From an uncultured Roseiarcus sp. (GTDB lineage: Bacteria > Pseudomonadota > Alphaproteobacteria > Rhizobiales > Beijerinckiaceae), in NCBI GenBank assembly GCA_945957375.1, contig CAMFKX010000022.1, positions 1 through 32,904 on the forward strand: a stretch of 32,904 bases of DNA, written 5' to 3'. Positions 23,840 to 32,189 of this stretch are shown piece by piece. How positions within the stretch are numbered: position 1 is the stretch's first letter; every line of letters begins with the position of its first letter. Position numbers and translations under genes: made by a program. Below the pieces are notes generated by a model. That model ran no database searches, was not told the origin of the DNA, and saw only the letters and a list, made by a program, of their open reading frames with translations.

Positions 23840-24064
23840 CGTCAGAACTCCTCTTGCGGCGCATCGGCGCCGGCAGCCCCCGGGGCGTTTAACGGAGAAA
23901 ACCGCGCTCCGGATGAATTCGGCCGCGACCTCATGTGGGTCCCGGACCGTCAGATGCAAAGCCCGGGCGGACGGGGGCGCAAGACTCCCCGAAATCGCAG
24001 CTGGCAAAGGGCGCGAATCATCGTAGCATGTCGGTGTCGTTAACAGCCGAAAGGAGGTGATCCA

Positions 24065-24139
24065 GTGTCTCATTGTCATCAGCCCCGTATGATCGACTGG
24101 GCCTGGGTTCATGCCCCCGCGAAGGATTTGCTTGCGTAG
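24065..24139 (+). CDS. Putative leader peptide (24 aa)
   Basis: GTG start 7 nt after AGGAGG within AAAGGAGGTGATCCAG; (M)SHCHQPRMIDWAWVHAPAKDLLA then TAG. Confidence 0.6.
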   Translation: MSHCHQPRMIDWAWVHAPAKDLLA

Positions 24140-24198
24140 CGTTCGCTGAAGGCACGTAATCGAGAGCCCCGGCGAACTCCGCGCGGGCCACGACAATG

Positions 24199-24235
24199 GA
24201 AGGGCCGTTTCCGAGAGGGGACGGTCCTTCTTTTT
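24199..24235 (+). terminator. Intrinsic terminator / attenuator
   Basis: GAAGGGCCGTTTCC-GAGA-GGGGACGGTCCTTC (14-bp stem with GU pairs) followed by TTTTT. Confidence 0.85.
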
Positions 24236-24317
24236 GGCGCGTTCGGCGCGCGGTCGCCGTTGACCCGGGCGACAAAACAACGGCACCATCCTTTTCATCC
24301 CGTCGTCGAGGACGCCC

Positions 24318-24632
24318 ATGTTCATCGCCATGAACCGCTTCAAGGTGTTGAAGGATTCGACCAAGGCGTTCGAAACCGTCTGGCTCTCCCGGGAAAGCCG
24401 TCTCGGCCGCGTGCCCGGCTTCGTCGAATTTCATCTCCTGCGCGGCCCCGAGCGCGACGACCACGTCCTCTACGCGTCGCACACCGTGTGGGAGAGCCAC
24501 GAGGCGTTCCTCGCCTGGACGCAGTCCGAGCCCTTCCGCGCCGCCCATCGCAACGCCGGCGACAACAAGCCGCTCTACCTCGGTCCGCCGGAGTTCGAGG
24601 GCTTTGAGGTGCTGCAGACCGTCGGGCGGTAG
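24318..24632 (+). CDS. Antibiotic biosynthesis monooxygenase / IsdG-HmuQ-like heme monooxygenase family protein
   Basis: MFIAMNRFKVLKDSTKAFETVWLSRESRLGRVPGFVEFHLLRG...HTVWESHEAFLAWTQSEPFRAAHRNA, ABM fold signature. Confidence 0.85.
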   Translation: MFIAMNRFKVLKDSTKAFETVWLSRESRLGRVPGFVEFHLLRGPERDDHVLYASHTVWESHEAFLAWTQSEPFRAAHRNAGDNKPLYLGPPEFEGFEVLQTVGR

Positions 24633-24733
24633 TTCGGGCCTACCATAGGGACGCAGCGTCGTGCGCGAGCGCCGACCAAATCCGAGCGGTCAACCACATT
24701 TGTCGATCGCGTAATTTGAAAAAGCATTTGTGT

Positions 24734-24772
24734 TCCGCGGCGCGGCGCAAGGACTTTGCGCCGCGCCGCGGA
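24734..24772. terminator. Perfect 17-bp hairpin, probable bidirectional terminator
   Basis: TCCGCGGCGCGGCGCAA-GGACT-TTGCGCCGCGCCGCGGA between convergent genes. Confidence 0.65.
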
Positions 24773-24788
24773 GGGATTGGGCGCGGAA

Positions 24789-24816
24789 GCGGACGGGAGG
24801 CTCGCCTCCCGTCCGC
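24789..24816. terminator. Perfect 13-bp hairpin
   Basis: GCGGACGGGAGGC-TC-GCCTCCCGTCCGC immediately downstream of the desaturase stop (minus strand). Confidence 0.65.
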
Positions 24817-24825
24817 AACCCGCGA

Positions 24826-26064
24826 CTATTCGAGGTTCTGACGCGCGACCGCCATCATCGCGCGAACGCCCCAGACTTCCCGGCGCGACATTCCGAAATG
24901 GTCGCCGCTGTCGCGGATCATTTCTCCGCGCCGGAACGGCTGGTTACGCCAGTCGTCGATCCACTGGTCGAGCGCCTTGGCCTCGAACACCAGCAGATAT
25001 TCCATGTGATGCGCGTCGTGCGCCTGAAGGTCGGGCGACAGCACGCCGACGCGGAACGGCAACTCCACCAAGGCGATCTCCGCCCACCAGAACGTCCACG
25101 CTTTGGCCCAGGCGAAGCCGGCGAGGCCGCGCTTCGGCAGGCGAACGCCGCTGAACCGCGCCCAGGTGCGCTCGGCGTATTCGTCGAGCGTCGCGACGCG
25201 CGGCAAGAGCCACGCGTGAAGCGAGACGATCTGCAACAGTGCGGCGAGCCGGAACAGGATGACCCAGGGCGCGACGACCGCCGCGAGCCAGGTCGCGAGC
25301 GGCAGAACCGCCGCGAGGCCGAGCAGCGAGGCGACCCAGATCGCGCCCATCACGCGCCGCCGCCAGCCCGGTTCGACCAGATTGGCGTGCAGTCGCTGAG
25401 CGAAGTCCCGCCCGTATTCGATCGGATTGAGGAGATGCCCGACGAAGCCCTTGCGGATCGAGCGCACGAGGGCCGCGTCCGGATCGTCGTCCGTCGTGTA
25501 GGTCTCGACCGCGTGGTGAAGATCATGGTCGCGACGGTAGGCGACCATGTTCTGCGACAGCGCGAAGGTCGTGGCGACTTCGCCGAGGAAGTCGTTGACC
25601 GTCATTCCGAAGAGGCGGCGCGCGCCGTCACGACGCGGGTCGCCCTGAAGAAAGAAGTTGCCGTGCGCGGCCTCGTGGCCCTCGAGCGTCTGCATCTTGC
25701 GCAGCCGCCCGACGATGACCATCCAGAGCGCGGGCACCATGACGAGGCTCGCCCACCATGGCGCCGTCAGCATCGACGCGACGACGCCGGCGACCCCGAG
25801 CAGGGCGAGGCCCATGTCGAGAGCGAGGTAGGCGAGCGGATCGAGCCGGTTCGGTCCGGATCGGCCGTCGAGGATCGGCTTGCCGGTGAACCAGTCCAGC
25901 AGCCAACGCGGCAGCGTGAGCCGGTTCTCCATGTCCTGGCGCGGATCGATCTCGTCTTCACGGGGGTAGCGCGCCCACAGCGTCATGCGGGCGCCGAGGC
26001 GCCGAAGCGCCTCAATGGTTCTCGCGACGGTCTTGCCGCCGCGCCGGTCTGTGTTCGTGTTCAT
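24826..26064 (-). CDS. Fatty acid desaturase-superfamily membrane protein
   Basis: Histidine boxes HEAAH, HDLHH and HDAHH with four or more TM segments. Confidence 0.85.
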   Translation of the reverse strand: MNTNTDRRGGKTVARTIEALRRLGARMTLWARYPREDEIDPRQDMENRLTLPRWLLDWFTGKPILDGRSGPNRLDPLAYLALDMGLALLGVAGVVASMLTAPWWASLVMVPALWMVIVGRLRKMQTLEGHEAAHGNFFLQGDPRRDGARRLFGMTVNDFLGEVATTFALSQNMVAYRRDHDLHHAVETYTTDDDPDAALVRSIRKGFVGHLLNPIEYGRDFAQRLHANLVEPGWRRRVMGAIWVASLLGLAAVLPLATWLAAVVAPWVILFRLAALLQIVSLHAWLLPRVATLDEYAERTWARFSGVRLPKRGLAGFAWAKAWTFWWAEIALVELPFRVGVLSPDLQAHDAHHMEYLLVFEAKALDQWIDDWRNQPFRRGEMIRDSGDHFGMSRREVWGVRAMMAVARQNLE

Positions 26065-26678
26065 TGTGGTTTGTTCCTGGGGTGTCTCGTTGGAGACGCG
26101 CGCCAGCGGCGGGCGCGGTCCGGGATGCCCGGACCCACAGGGACCTGTTGTTTCGATAGACGTTTTGCGCCATTCGGCCACCCAGGTCCTAAGAAGGGCC
26201 GGGCTGCGACGTAAAGGTCAGCGACGGATTGTCAGCATCGTCGCCGACTTGCCGCTTCGCAGTGCAATCGCGTCTCTAAGCCGGCGGGGCCGGTTGGACG
26301 CGACAAAGAAAGGGAGCAGGCTTCGCCGTGAACGCGGTCTGACGCATGCGCGGGAAGACGCTCGGCATCGCCCGTTTGGTCTTGATCGGGAGGCGCCAAA
26401 AGGGGCCGGCGGCCGCGCCATTGGCGTCGGTTCGCTGGAAGCCCCAATCTGGAGAAAGCCGCGGCTCGATGAGCAGCGGTCGCCGGGTTTCCGGTTCTCG
26501 GGCGAGGACTGTCGTCGTCGCGCCGAATGACCGGGCCGGACCGTCGCGCTTTGCGCGCGACGCGGCCGCGCCTTGCGGCTTCGGCCGGAGGGCGGTTGCG
26601 CCGTCCTCTTCATTGTGGGGGAATAGGGAGCAATGGTTCCGCTGCACGCGGACGGGCAATCGACCGGCGGAGATCCCG

Positions 26679-29402
26679 GTGCCGAGAATCGACAGGGTCC
26701 GGAAAACGGCGAACGCCCTCGGCCGCCTCGCCGGCCTCGGCGACGAGGCGCTCTTGCCGATGCCTCACGCCGCCGAAGCGCTGTCGCGCCCCGGCGCCAT
26801 TTCCACGGAATTGCGGATCGAGTACCGGGAGCGGCTGCGACGAACCTGCGTCGCCGATCCGCTCTATCTCGACCCGTTTCGCCGACCCTCGCCGGAGGCG
26901 ACCGACGCCGTCTTCGGCGTCCTGCGCGCGGCGCTGGCCGACAGGGCGGACATCGCCGCGAAGCTCGACCAAGCCGTGGCCGACCCGCGCGACGATCGCG
27001 ATCCTCCAGAGAACGGCGGCGAGGCGCGCGGCGGCCTGGCGTTGCTGATCGCGCTCGCGCTCGGACGGGACGACGCTCCCCGCCGCATCACCTTCAACGA
27101 CGTGTTCGACACGGTCGCGCGCGGCTACAGCGACCACTTCGTCGCCGGACCGGCGCGCCATTCGCGCGGCATGGCGCCCCTGCGCGCGAAGCGCGCGCAG
27201 CGCGACCTGCTGATCCAGTTCGTCCGCATCGACGCGCTTTGGCGGTTTCTCCGGATCGACTGGCCGGCGGCCGGCGCGGCCTGCCCTTACGCGATCGAGA
27301 GCCGCCCCGCCGGCGGAGCCGGGGGCTCCAAAGGGCCCAGGACGGAGACCTGGATCACGCCGCGGCTCTGCGCGCTGACGATGCGGCTTCGCGACGCCTG
27401 CGACGCCATCGATGTCCTGATGGACCGCGAGATCCTTCTCAGCCGGCCCTTGCTCCCGCCGCCGCCCCGGACGCCGTCGAAGCTCGGACGACCGGCGCCG
27501 GCCGCGCGCTTCGCCGCGGACGTGCCCTTCAACGCGGTCGCGCTCGGGCCGAGAACTCGCGAGATTCTCGCCCTGCAGTCGGCGGCGCGGCTGGTGTTCG
27601 ACAGGAGCGCGTTCCTGCGCGATTACGACGCCGCTTTCGCCGCGCGGCTGCGCCTGCGCGACATCCTGGACAGCCGCGGCCTCGACCCGACGCGATCCAA
27701 CATGGTTCGACGCTACGGCAAGGCCGGCGCGGCGGCCAAGGGCGCGGGCGGATCGCAGCCGCGCGAAGACCTGCAGGACTACTGGTCGGCGCGCGACGAG
27801 CAGGTCCATTACCGGTCGATGGAGCACGCCTTCGTCGAGCGGCGCCCGGCCGATGCGCGGCAGCAGCGACTGGTCGCGGAGAAACTGCAGGGCCCGGGGC
27901 GGCAAGAGGCGCTCGCGCGCCGCCGCGCCGGATTTCTGCAGCACATCGAGCGCCGGATCAAGAATGGGCATGGCGATCCGGGATGGGCGGAACGGGCTCG
28001 CGCGCTGTCCGTCGCGGAAGCCGCCTTGCTCGGCGTCCAGGGATTCGAATGGCGCAACGAAGTCAGGGCCTTGTTCTCCGAGCTCGACCGGGCGGACGCG
28101 CTCCTGCGCGCCTACCGACCGATCTGGCGACAATTGCTGTCCGACGACGGCGACCCGGACGTCGTGATCGACAGCGCCTTCCGGCGCACCGTCAACCGGC
28201 GCTTCCAGCCGCTGCACATGTGGCCGACCTACGTCAGCAACAAGGAGCGCGAGGACGCCTGGCCGGAGAGCGACGACGGACTGGAGGACGACGCCGACGA
28301 GCGCGCGCCGGCCGCCGAATCCGACGACGAGCGCGCCGGGTCATACCGCAAGCGCTGGTTTCGCGCGCCTGGGATCGACGGCGCCAGAGTTCCCCTGGTC
28401 GGCATCGACGTGTCGTCCTCGCAGACCCAGATCATCGCCTTCCTCATCGGCTGCGAGGCGCTCGAACGCGACGCGACCGCCTCGGGCGCCGACCGGGCGT
28501 TCAAGGCGGCGCTCGCCCGACGCGCGTTCGCGATGGATCAGGCGACCGCGGGCGGACTCCTGCGGCGCACCTCGGAGACGAGCGCGGTCGCGCCTTATTC
28601 CGGTCCCGACGACTCGAGGCTGCAGAACCTGTGCAAGGGCCTGTGGATGGCGATCTCCTACGGCGGATCGGCGCCGGGCGTCGTCCGGATCCAGGACAAC
28701 GACAAGGCGACCTACGGCCCGGGCTGGAGAATCGAAAATGCCCGCCGGTTCCTCAACGAACTCGACCGCGTCTATCCGGAGATGAAGGCGTTCCTCGCGG
28801 TCTGTCGCCTGGCGGCGCGGATCGCCGTCGAGGCCGATCCCGCCGAGGGATTCATCATGACCGATCCTTACGATGGCGCGACGATCCGCTGGAATCCGCT
28901 CGAGCTGGACGAGATCGTCGTCGAAGTCGGCGAGGGAAAACTCATGCTGTCAGTCCCGAAAGGGGTGGACGGCGTGAGCGAGCCGCAGCCCGGCGGCCGC
29001 TATCCGGTCAACCCGCAGCGGCTGCGGCGCATGCTGGCGCCGTGCCTGATCCACACGCTGGACGCCTTCTATTCCGCCCTGGTGATGGAGCGGCTCAAGG
29101 ACGCCGGCGTCGACGATTTCGTGTCGATTCACGATTGCTGGCTGGTTCCGGAGCGGTTTCGCGCCGACGGCGAGATCCGAGCCGGCCTGCCGGTGCTGGA
29201 AGAGGCCTTCCGCGGCGCGGCGCGCGACTGGTACGCCGGTCTCGAGCCGGTCTATCTCGCGCTGACGCGCTATCTCGAACGCGGAGACCCGGACAACCGG
29301 AGCGTGCGCCGCGGCCGCGCGTTCGTCGCCGCGGCTTACGAGACCTGGCGACGGCGCAACCAGGACGGTTTCGCGCCGAACTTCCTCTACCGACCGGACT
29401 GA
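26679..29402 (+). CDS. Divergent single-subunit (T7/mitochondrial-like) DNA-directed RNA polymerase homolog, about 907 aa
   Basis: GIDVSSSQTQ (motif A), LCKGLWMAISYGGSAPG (motif B, K+8=Y-G), LAPCLIHTLDAF and FVSIHDCW (motif C), plus TDPYDGATIRWNP resembling the T7 TPDGFPVW segment. GTG 26679 is preceded by GGAG; the longer ORF begins at 26346 and an ATG exists at 26760. Confidence 0.83.
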   Translation: MPRIDRVRKTANALGRLAGLGDEALLPMPHAAEALSRPGAISTELRIEYRERLRRTCVADPLYLDPFRRPSPEATDAVFGVLRAALADRADIAAKLDQAVADPRDDRDPPENGGEARGGLALLIALALGRDDAPRRITFNDVFDTVARGYSDHFVAGPARHSRGMAPLRAKRAQRDLLIQFVRIDALWRFLRIDWPAAGAACPYAIESRPAGGAGGSKGPRTETWITPRLCALTMRLRDACDAIDVLMDREILLSRPLLPPPPRTPSKLGRPAPAARFAADVPFNAVALGPRTREILALQSAARLVFDRSAFLRDYDAAFAARLRLRDILDSRGLDPTRSNMVRRYGKAGAAAKGAGGSQPREDLQDYWSARDEQVHYRSMEHAFVERRPADARQQRLVAEKLQGPGRQEALARRRAGFLQHIERRIKNGHGDPGWAERARALSVAEAALLGVQGFEWRNEVRALFSELDRADALLRAYRPIWRQLLSDDGDPDVVIDSAFRRTVNRRFQPLHMWPTYVSNKEREDAWPESDDGLEDDADERAPAAESDDERAGSYRKRWFRAPGIDGARVPLVGIDVSSSQTQIIAFLIGCEALERDATASGADRAFKAALARRAFAMDQATAGGLLRRTSETSAVAPYSGPDDSRLQNLCKGLWMAISYGGSAPGVVRIQDNDKATYGPGWRIENARRFLNELDRVYPEMKAFLAVCRLAARIAVEADPAEGFIMTDPYDGATIRWNPLELDEIVVEVGEGKLMLSVPKGVDGVSEPQPGGRYPVNPQRLRRMLAPCLIHTLDAFYSALVMERLKDAGVDDFVSIHDCWLVPERFRADGEIRAGLPVLEEAFRGAARDWYAGLEPVYLALTRYLERGDPDNRSVRRGRAFVAAAYETWRRRNQDGFAPNFLYRPD

Positions 29403-29426
29403 AGCGCGCTCTCAGAAATGCACGAC

Positions 29427-29450
29427 GGCCCGCCGGTTTCCCGGCGGGCC
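29427..29450. terminator. Bidirectional terminator hairpin
   Basis: GGCCCGCCGG-TTTC-CCGGCGGGCC, perfect 10-bp stem between the convergent polymerase-like gene and acnB. Confidence 0.75.
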
Positions 29451-29471
29451 GCCCGTATCCAACCTGATGCT

Positions 29472-32063
29472 TCAGGCGTCGACCGTCTCCGCCAGGTCGA
29501 CGAACTCCGGGATCTTGTCGAAGTTCATGTAGCGATAGACCTCGTCGGTCTTGCCCTTGAGCGTGCCGACCGCCGCCATGTACTCGTCGAAGGTCGGGAT
29601 CCGGCCGAGCAGCGCGCCAACCGCGGCGAGCTCCGCCGACGACAGATAGACGCGGGTGTCGATGCCGAGGCGGTTGGGGAAGTTGCGCGTCGAGGTCGAG
29701 AGCGCCGTCGACCCTTTCCGGATCTGCGCCTGGTTGCCCATGCACAGCGAGCAGCCCGGCATCTCCATGCGCGCGCCCGACTTGCCGAGTGTGGCGTAAT
29801 AGCCTTCCTCGGTCAGGATATGCGCGTCCATCTTGGTCGGCGGGGCGATCCACAGGCGGGTCGGGATGTCCGACTTGCCGGCGAGGATCTTTCCGGCGGC
29901 GCGGAAATGGCCGATGTTGGTCATGCACGAGCCGATGAACACCTCGTCGATTTTGTCGCCGGCGACGTCGGACAGCGTCTTGATGTCGTCCGGGTCGTTC
30001 GGGCAGGCGAGCAGCGGCTCCTTGATCGCGTTCATGTCGATCTCGAACACCGCCGCATATTCAGCGTCGGCGTCGGGGGCGAGCAGCTGCGGGTTGGCGA
30101 TCCAGGCCTCCATCGCGGCGATGCGGCGCTCGAGCGAGCGGCGATCCTGATACCCCTCCGCGATCATCCACTTCATCAGCGTGACGTTCGAGGTCATGTA
30201 TTCGAGGATCGGCTCCTTGTTGAGCCGCACCGTGCAACCGGCCGCCGAGCGCTCGGCGGAGGCGTCGGAGAGCTCGAACGCCTGCTCAACCTTGAGGTTC
30301 GGCAGGCCCTCGATCTCGAGGATGCGGCCGTTGAAGACGTTCTTCTTGCCCTTCTTCTCGATCGTCAGGTCGCCGGTCTTGATCGCCGCATAGGGGATGG
30401 CGTTGACAAGGTCGCGCAGCGTCACGCCCGGCTGCATCGTCCCCTTGAAGCGGACCAGGACCGATTCCGGCATGTCGAGCGGCATGACGCCGGTGGCGGC
30501 CGCGAAGGCGACCAAGCCGGAGCCGGCCGGGAACGAAATGCCGATCGGGAAGCGGGTGTGCGAGTCGCCGCCGGTGCCGACGGTGTCGGGCATCAGCAGG
30601 CGGTTCAGCCACGAGTGGATGACGCCGTCGCCCGGCCGCAGGGAAATGCCGCCGCGGTTCGAGATGAAGGTCGGCAGCTCGCGGTGGGTCTGGACGTCGA
30701 CCAGCTTGGGATAAGCCGCGGTGTGGCAGAAGGACTGCATCACCAGGTCGGCCGAGAAACCGAGGCAGGCGAGGTCCTTCAGCTCGTCGCGGGTCATCGG
30801 GCCGGTCGTGTCCTGCGAGCCGACCGTCGTCATCTTCGGCTCGCAATAGGTGCCCGGGCGCATCCCCTTGCCCTCGGGCAGGCCGCAGGCGCGGCCGACC
30901 ATCTTCTGGGCGAGGGTGTAGCCCTTGCCGGTGTCCTTCGGCACGGCCGGAAGGCGGAACAGGGTCGAGGGCGCAAGGCCGAGCGCCTCGCGCGCCTTGG
31001 CGGTGAGGCCGCGGCCGATGATCAGCGGAATGCGGCCGCCGGCGCGCACCTCGTCGAAGATCACGTCGGACTTGACCTTGAACGTGGCGATCACCGCGCC
31101 GTTCTTCAGCGCCTTGCCGTCATAGGGACGCAGCTCGACGACGTCGCCCATCTCCATCTGCGAGACGTCGAGTTCGATCGGCAGCGCGCCGGCGTCCTCC
31201 ATGGTGTTGTAGAAGATCGGCGCGATCTTCGAGCCGAGGCAGACGCCGCCGAAGCGCTTGTTCGGGACGAACGGGATGTCCTGGCCGGTGAACCAGAGCA
31301 CCGAATTGGTGGCGGACTTGCGCGACGAGCCGGTGCCGACCACGTCGCCGACATAGGCGACCGGATGGCCCTTGGCGATCAGCGCCGCGAGCTGCTTGGT
31401 CGGGCCGCGAGCGCCCGCCTCGTCCGGCTCGATGCCGGCGCGCGGATTCTTGAGCATGGCCAGCGCATGCAGCGGGATGTCGGGGCGGGTCGAGGCGTCG
31501 GGAGCCGGCGACAGGTCGTCGGTGTTGGTCTCGCCCGAAACCTTGAACACGGTGACGGTCAGGGACTCGGGAACCTCGGGCCGCGAGGTGAACCACTCGG
31601 CCTCGGCCCAGGAGTGCAGCACCGCCTTGGCGTTGGCGTCGCCCTTGTCGGCATGCTCCTTCACATCGTGGAAATAGTCGAAAATCAGCAGGGTCTTCTT
31701 CAACCCCTCGGCCGCGATGGTCCCGACGACGGGATCGGGCAGAAGGTCGATCAGCGACTTGATGTTGAAGCCGCCGAGCATCGTGCCGAGCAGCTTCGTC
31801 GCCAGCTCGCGCGACACGAGCGCGTTGGTCTCGTAGCCCTTGGCGACGCCGTCGAGGAAGCCGGCCTTGAGCCGGGCCGCGTCGTCCACGCCCGCCGGGA
31901 CGCGGTGAGTGAGAAGGTCGACCAGAAACGCCTCCTCGCCCTTCGGCGGATCGCGCAGCAGCGCGATCAGCGCCTCGGTCTGCTTGGCCGAAAGCGGCAG
32001 CGGCGGAATGCCGAGAGCGCCGCGTTCGGCGACATGGGCGCGGTAGGTTTCCAGAAACGACAT
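29472..32063 (-). CDS. acnB: Bifunctional aconitate hydratase 2 / 2-methylisocitrate dehydratase
   Basis: [106 protein letters not shown]. Confidence 0.98.
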
Positions 32064-32189
32064 GATGGCCTCGTGAGTGCGACGGAGACGCGGCTGTGTC
32101 CTGCAATGGCACGTGACGTGAATGGCGTCAGGAATCAAGATACGAATATGTTGAACAAGCAGGCTTCGTGCATCCGCGCCAGGCGCGGG

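Follow-up and report, generated by a model that had tools for sequence, protein, structure and literature searches.

A candidate deep lineage of single-subunit RNA polymerases encoded among ordinary bacterial genes in a Roseiarcus contig

For the transcription of their own chromosomes, bacteria are considered to use a multi-subunit enzyme only, and the single-subunit RNA polymerases found in bacterial genomes are normally phage genes. Mitochondrial RNA polymerase is in turn thought to derive from phage polymerases. What, then, is a gene with the catalytic landmarks of a T7-like polymerase doing between a desaturase gene and acnB in an uncultured Roseiarcus? The initial annotation, made by reading the DNA alone, had proposed a divergent and catalytically intact enzyme with no visible phage context, either domesticated or the remnant of an element. 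We examined this proposal in the window, the whole stretch of 32,904 nucleotides that makes up contig 22 of a 5.6-Mb genome assembled in 470 contigs.

The reading frame, its coordinates, the predicted length and the residue numbers given in the initial annotation were all recovered when re-derived from the sequence. The frame is open for 1018 aa (26346-29402, + strand), its upstream extension reaching an ATG at 26346. GTG 26679 is nevertheless favored as the start because a GGAG lies 6 nt upstream and because a homolog from a Methylomirabilota genome (G466) starts at the residue aligned to the first residue of the window protein (MPRxDR), on a GTG that likewise follows a GGAGG. Residues are numbered here with GTG 26679 as residue 1. 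The frame is coding, since its codon-position G+C (0.73/0.52/0.88) fits a G+C-rich genome and since it shares 33% identity over its whole length with the homolog from another phylum. The G+C content of the gene is host-like (0.707 versus 0.693 for the contig). The features of the gene and its immediate surroundings are:

26669-26672, + strand: GGAG, Shine-Dalgarno-like, 6 nt before GTG 26679
26679-29402, + strand: predicted single-subunit RNA polymerase gene, 907 aa, GTG start (homolog, profile match, codon-position G+C)
29426-29451, no strand assigned: perfect 11-bp inverted repeat with a 4-nt loop, terminator-like, between the convergent polymerase and acnB genes
29472-32138, - strand: acnB, convergent with the polymerase gene

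Membership in the single-subunit RNA polymerases was assessed by profile comparison. The Pfam search proposed in the initial annotation did retrieve RNA_pol (PF00940), but at 18.8-19.1 bits for the protein alone, under the gathering cut-off of 22; in a profile search of the genome, where neighbors in frame are counted together, the score was 24.2 bits, and the window gene was the only PF00940 match in the source genome. Among the PHROGs, the window protein matched phrog_414, annotated "RNA polymerase" (1.7e-4), which was also the best match of each of three longer family members scanned singly (1.4e-4, 6.5e-4 and 1.4e-5). RNA_pol and phrog_414 were the only families matched by the window protein; searches of the PDB with the single sequence, of NCBIfam and of PADLOC returned no match, and none of the profile scans placed it with confidence in another family, an outcome that had been named as refuting.

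Comparison of profiles gave a sharper separation. With hhalign, the family aligned to T7-like polymerases (sets of 8-10 sequences) at 89-95% depending on the set, with E values of 2.2e-6 to 4.2e-8, while it reached 0.3-0.5% against bacterial DNA polymerase I (8 sequences) and 0.4-0.5% against T7 DNA polymerase together with one phage-type polymerase. Reversed-profile controls gave at most 0.5%. When the 43 long frames of the window were each compared singly with the T7-like profile, the polymerase frame reached 63.9% and the next best 0.6%. The match to T7-like polymerases is thus beyond chance, given the level of the reversed profiles and the single scoring frame of the window. In structure comparison, a model built from two sequences was of low confidence (pLDDT 33 for the whole, 42.7 for the core), and in Foldseek searches with this core, mitochondrial RNA polymerases ranked 1-3 in the PDB (E > 0.001, not significant) and phage RNA polymerases stood mostly at the top of the BFVD list, again without significance. 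As the two-sequence model is too poor to stand by itself, these lists are only consistent with an RNA polymerase. The Pfam and phrog_414 matches and the hhalign scores of 93.7-94.9% support the proposal that the window protein is a divergent single-subunit (T7/mitochondrial) RNA polymerase.

The alignment also places the catalytic residues. In T7 RNA polymerase (883 aa), the landmarks are DWRGR at 421-425, D537, K631, Y639-G, H784 and D812. In the hhalign register, D577, K653, M657, Y661, H792 and D819 of the window protein fall opposite T7 D537, K631, M635, Y639, H784 and D812, so that all five counterparts originally assigned by eye (D577, K653, Y661, H792 and D819) hold. The motifs, with the two that are particular to the family, are:

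27087-27137, + strand: family-specific N-terminal motif ITFNDVFDTVARGYSDH, residues 137-153, without Pfam counterpart (family alignment)
28194-28226, + strand: family motif NRRFQPLHMWP, residues 506-516, with invariant N-R-R-x-Q-x-x-H-x-W (family alignment)
28407-28430, + strand: motif A, D577-VSSSQTQ, against T7 D537-GSCSGIQ (hhalign)
28635-28664, + strand: motif B, K653-GLW-M657-AIS-Y661-G, against T7 K631, M635, Y639-G (hhalign)
29040-29063, + strand: P-C-L-I-H792-T-L-D795, against T7 P-N-F-V-H784-S-Q-D787, the RNA-polymerase-specific H..D motif (profile alignment)
29118-29150, + strand: motif C, FVSIH-D819-CWLVP, against T7 FALIH-D812-SFGTIP, the HD being kept in all members (profile alignment)

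H792/D795 and H818/D819 are invariant across the polymerase family. Motif B of the G466 homolog reads K623, M627, Y631-G, and a broken copy from a Rokubacteria genome keeps Y-G with an M at the Lys position. At the position of T7 R627, the window protein has Q649, G466 has R619, and the Rokubacteria copy has an R at the same distance from Y-G. The correspondence drawn earlier between E457-W-R and T7 DWRGR fared less well: W-R does align, but the alignment of this region is below confidence, E457 is a K in G466, and T7 R425 falls on E461. Nearer motif A, the family carries the stronger signature N-R-R-x-Q-x-x-H-x-W (506-515), a segment with no confident T7 profile alignment; that NRRFQPLHMWP might stand in for the template-binding Arg hairpin of T7 DxxGR is a guess. 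From these residues, the metal-binding and nucleotide-binding core is likely to be catalytically intact, a statement that we qualify because of the Q at the R627 position and the lack of a clear DxxGR motif.

Overall, the family resembles T7-like phage polymerases (PF00940, phrog_414) in that motifs A, B and C align in register, as does the H..D motif, within a single polypeptide of similar length (907 versus 883 aa). It differs from them in that the window protein has no detectable BLAST similarity to them, an unrecognizable DxxGR, a glutamine in place of R627, no neighboring phage genes, and an N-terminal half unrelated in sequence. This half (ITFNxxFDxxAxxYSDH; RAKRxxRDLL) had no match in any profile library scanned, and RPOL_N (PF14700) did not match the window protein at E up to 10. 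The N-terminal motif recurs as LVFDALAARWSDH in a second Rokubacteria copy.

When the family profile was compared with the PDB, the ten leading matches were all mitochondrial RNA polymerases (POLRMT, yeast Rpo41), individually weak (E 0.08-0.63). The family segment H-x-LD-A ... S-[IV]-HD-C is closest to theirs, yet the window gene is bacterial and the similarity covers no more than about 50 residues close to the C-terminus. Of the sequences compared singly by hhalign, the one that matched the family best (93.3%, E 2.8e-7) was L053 from genome G1042, a polymerase that shares LIHSLDA and IHDC with the family; no phage gene was seen on its contig. Unlike the window protein, L053 is a clear PF00940 member (5e-60) and adjoins a CARF/RtcR-like gene, absent in the window. 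On its 3046-bp contig (G1042:C64, loci L053/L055), the PF00940 polymerase lies directly upstream of the CARF/RtcR-like gene; this polymerase is possibly defense-linked.

We then considered how widely the family is distributed. Its core was scanned against 85,462 species genomes, and among the best two candidates per genome scored in these large searches, one relative emerged, in a Rokubacteria MAG (locus L003, 30% identity). The Methylomirabilota genome G466 encodes a full-length homolog of 871 aa (33% identity over 905 aa, 407 bits), and the family occurs in 3 of 95 Methylomirabilota genomes: G466, the Rokubacteria MAG and G491. The G491 locus (G491:C266, L034:19101-19712) retains the C-terminal ~80 residues only, and its frame reads on to where the contig stops, through unrelated sequence that resembles P450. 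The first Rokubacteria copy (L003) is split by an in-frame TAA into an N- and a C-terminal part, and it has the M at the T7 K631 position noted above. A second, N-terminal copy in the same genome (L082, G437:C122) was added by profile search; its contig closes with 111 nt that recur unchanged where the contig of the first copy ends (L003:15015-15125), next to a DDE transposase, so that this second copy appears interrupted. On these grounds the Rokubacteria copies appear to have decayed; the genes of the window and of G466 are intact.

Closer to the source, the gene was found in 1 of 11 genomes of the genus: it was absent from the 10 others, where the window gene has no DNA match, and from several hundred relatives searched at family, order, class and phylum level, the large searches scoring the best two candidates per genome. 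Other profile matches, in G1477 and G1042, are of the ordinary PF00940 type; G1477, an order-level relative, carries a T7-like phage-type gene with RPOL_N. Outside bacterial genomes, tblastn retrieved no match among 50,697 phage records with the window protein at E 0.01, none among phage records with the G466 homolog at E 0.1, and none among plasmids with either. Five scans of viral contigs with varied patterns found nothing related; three pattern matches in viral contigs were dropped as chance after a family-HMM check. In the open-access literature searched, we found no description of this polymerase family. The homologs, the phrog_414 matches and the T7-type profile match and register indicate that, at the level of sequence, the family is a deep lineage of single-subunit RNA polymerases, and apparently an undescribed one.

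The genomic setting bears on how the gene arrived. The order along the window is pgm (-), glmM (+), an uncharacterized ORF (-), a CC2171-type small RNA (+), an ABM monooxygenase (+), a fatty acid desaturase (-), the polymerase (+) and acnB (-), so the flanking genes are those originally named. The small RNA is one further mapped feature:

24041-24228, + strand: CC2171-type small RNA (Rfam RF01867), immediately downstream of glmM, of a type that points to an alphaproteobacterium

Elsewhere on the contig the genes are ordinary and include those for an alanine dehydrogenase, a response regulator, a transglycosylase, a glycosyltransferase, a MatE protein and a nucleoside hydrolase. Profile scans of the contig's main genes returned ordinary bacterial families only, with no phage replication, structural or lysis genes, which extends the reported lack of phage context to the whole contig and leaves no adjacent T7-like prophage, another finding named as refuting. 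We found no tRNA or tmRNA site in the window. The polymerase locus showed neither an integrase nor an att site nor direct repeats, and it lacked genes for a D5 helicase, an SSB or a resolvase/recombinase. Repeats resembling promoters were sought both upstream of the gene and genome-wide, and the only matches were weak and G+C-rich.

The neighborhood comparison suggested in the initial annotation was made within the genus and between phyla. The glmM block (from 22010) is conserved in congeners, whereas their ABM gene occurs on different contigs and acnB, with long DNA matches in 2 of 10 congeners (29424-32158, 90%), is located elsewhere there. The region from ~24300 to 32138 is therefore variable. 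With long matches in two congeners only and 84% identity to acnB on large Azospirillum plasmids, acnB is itself accessory here. Between phyla, no gene other than the polymerase is common to the window, G466 and Rokubacteria loci. At the Rokubacteria locus, a tRNA 3'-half (no complete tRNA) and then a frameshifted tyrosine recombinase (PF00589, 1.8e-8 for one piece) lie just downstream of the polymerase (L003:10785-11330), in what sequence features mark as a predicted integration site. In G466, the intact homolog is set among ordinary genes, with an HTH remnant nearby and, upstream, a DUF499/HmaC-like AAA+ ATPase of an anti-phage system type (G466:C54, L008:1-2408). An ORF upstream of the G466 polymerase gene has a "Pup" match.

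We consider it probable that the gene encodes a single-subunit RNA polymerase of a deep lineage that has spread horizontally among soil bacteria as the orphan gene of a small mobile or integrative element. The evidence leans toward a mobile or horizontally acquired gene because of its presence in 1 of 11 genus genomes, its patchy relatives in another phylum and the one tRNA/integrase site; between domestication and an element remnant, the alternatives left standing by the initial annotation, this tips toward the element. An enzyme of a mobile element is also favored over an established host gene because the loci share no neighbor and because a tRNA fragment and a broken integrase accompany the Rokubacteria copy; the transposase at the end of the second Rokubacteria copy is a further sign of mobility. 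Against this, the window locus lacks integrase, att site and direct repeats, and the G+C of the gene is host-like; the missing promoter repeats, the Pfam score below the cut-off and the low confidence of the structure models also count against the reading as a whole. In this reading, D577 and D819 would hold two metal ions, K653, H792 and Y661 would hold and select the ribonucleotide, and RNA would be made from DNA by a two-metal mechanism. The family-specific N-terminal half would read the enzyme's own promoter or promoters, and the polymerase would transcribe a small private gene set, most simply its own gene and the element, without the host RNA polymerase.

Two other readings give the enzyme a function in the host. 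It could be a domesticated host enzyme that serves a dedicated regulon, for instance under stress or phage attack: the 907-aa frame is intact, its composition is that of the host, it lies between glmM and acnB without element genes, a defense-type ATPase gene stands upstream of the G466 homolog, and a CARF/RtcR-like gene next to L053, itself a chromosomal-looking single-subunit polymerase. We regard this role as doubtful; it is weakened by the lack of vertical conservation, the gene being absent from the 10 other genus genomes and all other relatives searched, and by loci that share nothing but the polymerase and include broken Rokubacteria copies. The broader proposal that the family is a third lineage, neither phage nor organellar, which branches outside the phage polymerases and constitutes a dedicated second transcription system of bacteria, seems unlikely; if true, it could mean, for example, a defense- or stress-linked regulon.

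The remaining alternatives question the assignment or the locus itself. The main mechanistic rival is a TV-Pol or family A primase-polymerase, or a DNA polymerase, that merely resembles RNA polymerases. TV-Pol and PolA-SSB primases are found in mobile elements of diverse bacteria (PMC2579912, PMC10061031), TV-Pols near integrases (PMC2579912), and with the window protein they would share the polymerase fold class and an occurrence in mobile regions; moreover, the motif A pattern D-x-S-x-x-Q-x-Q-I-x-A-x-L also resembles that of family A, and a weak family A profile alignment sits in the motif A to B register. The proposed check against pol A nonetheless rejected family A, with at most 0.5% against 94-95% for T7-like polymerases, in sets that held no TV-Pol sequence; the H..D motif before motif C and the Met at K+4 are of RNA polymerase type, the window has no operon of D5 helicase, SSB and recombinase, and the protein is larger than a TV-Pol (907 versus 400-600 aa; PMC2579912). 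This makes the rival improbable. That the gene is what remains of an inactivated, ordinary T7-like (Autographiviridae) prophage is quite improbable, even though single-subunit polymerases are best known from T7-like phages and G1477 carries an ordinary phage-type gene: the family falls well beyond the range spanned by the T7-like phages tested, the phage records and scanned viral contigs hold no match, the contig has no other phage gene and the N-terminal half no RPOL_N match. An assembly or binning artifact, in which a viral or foreign fragment was joined to a bacterial contig, would suit a genome in 470 contigs and a gene without DNA match in congeners, but is scarcely credible given same-genus DNA matches on both sides within one contig (the glmM block, and acnB at 90% in two congeners), a gene composition that matches that of the contig, and a full-length homolog between ordinary genes in a second genome.

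The chemistry of the superfamily is already known; what appears new is the lineage, its domain make-up and its genomic setting, none of them covered by the libraries scanned or the open-access papers searched. A conserved family that is full-length in two phyla, absent from the scanned phage and viral collections and so divergent that neither BLAST nor the Pfam cut-off catches it shows that this class of polymerases extends further than was known. As a distant lineage, it may bear on the origin of mitochondrial RNA polymerase, and the window enzyme is possibly a new orthogonal polymerase with its own promoter. Separately, one congener (G003:C180, L075) carries a phage-type family A DNA polymerase with the motif DYSGIQGAIAAWL and a weak PF00476 match.
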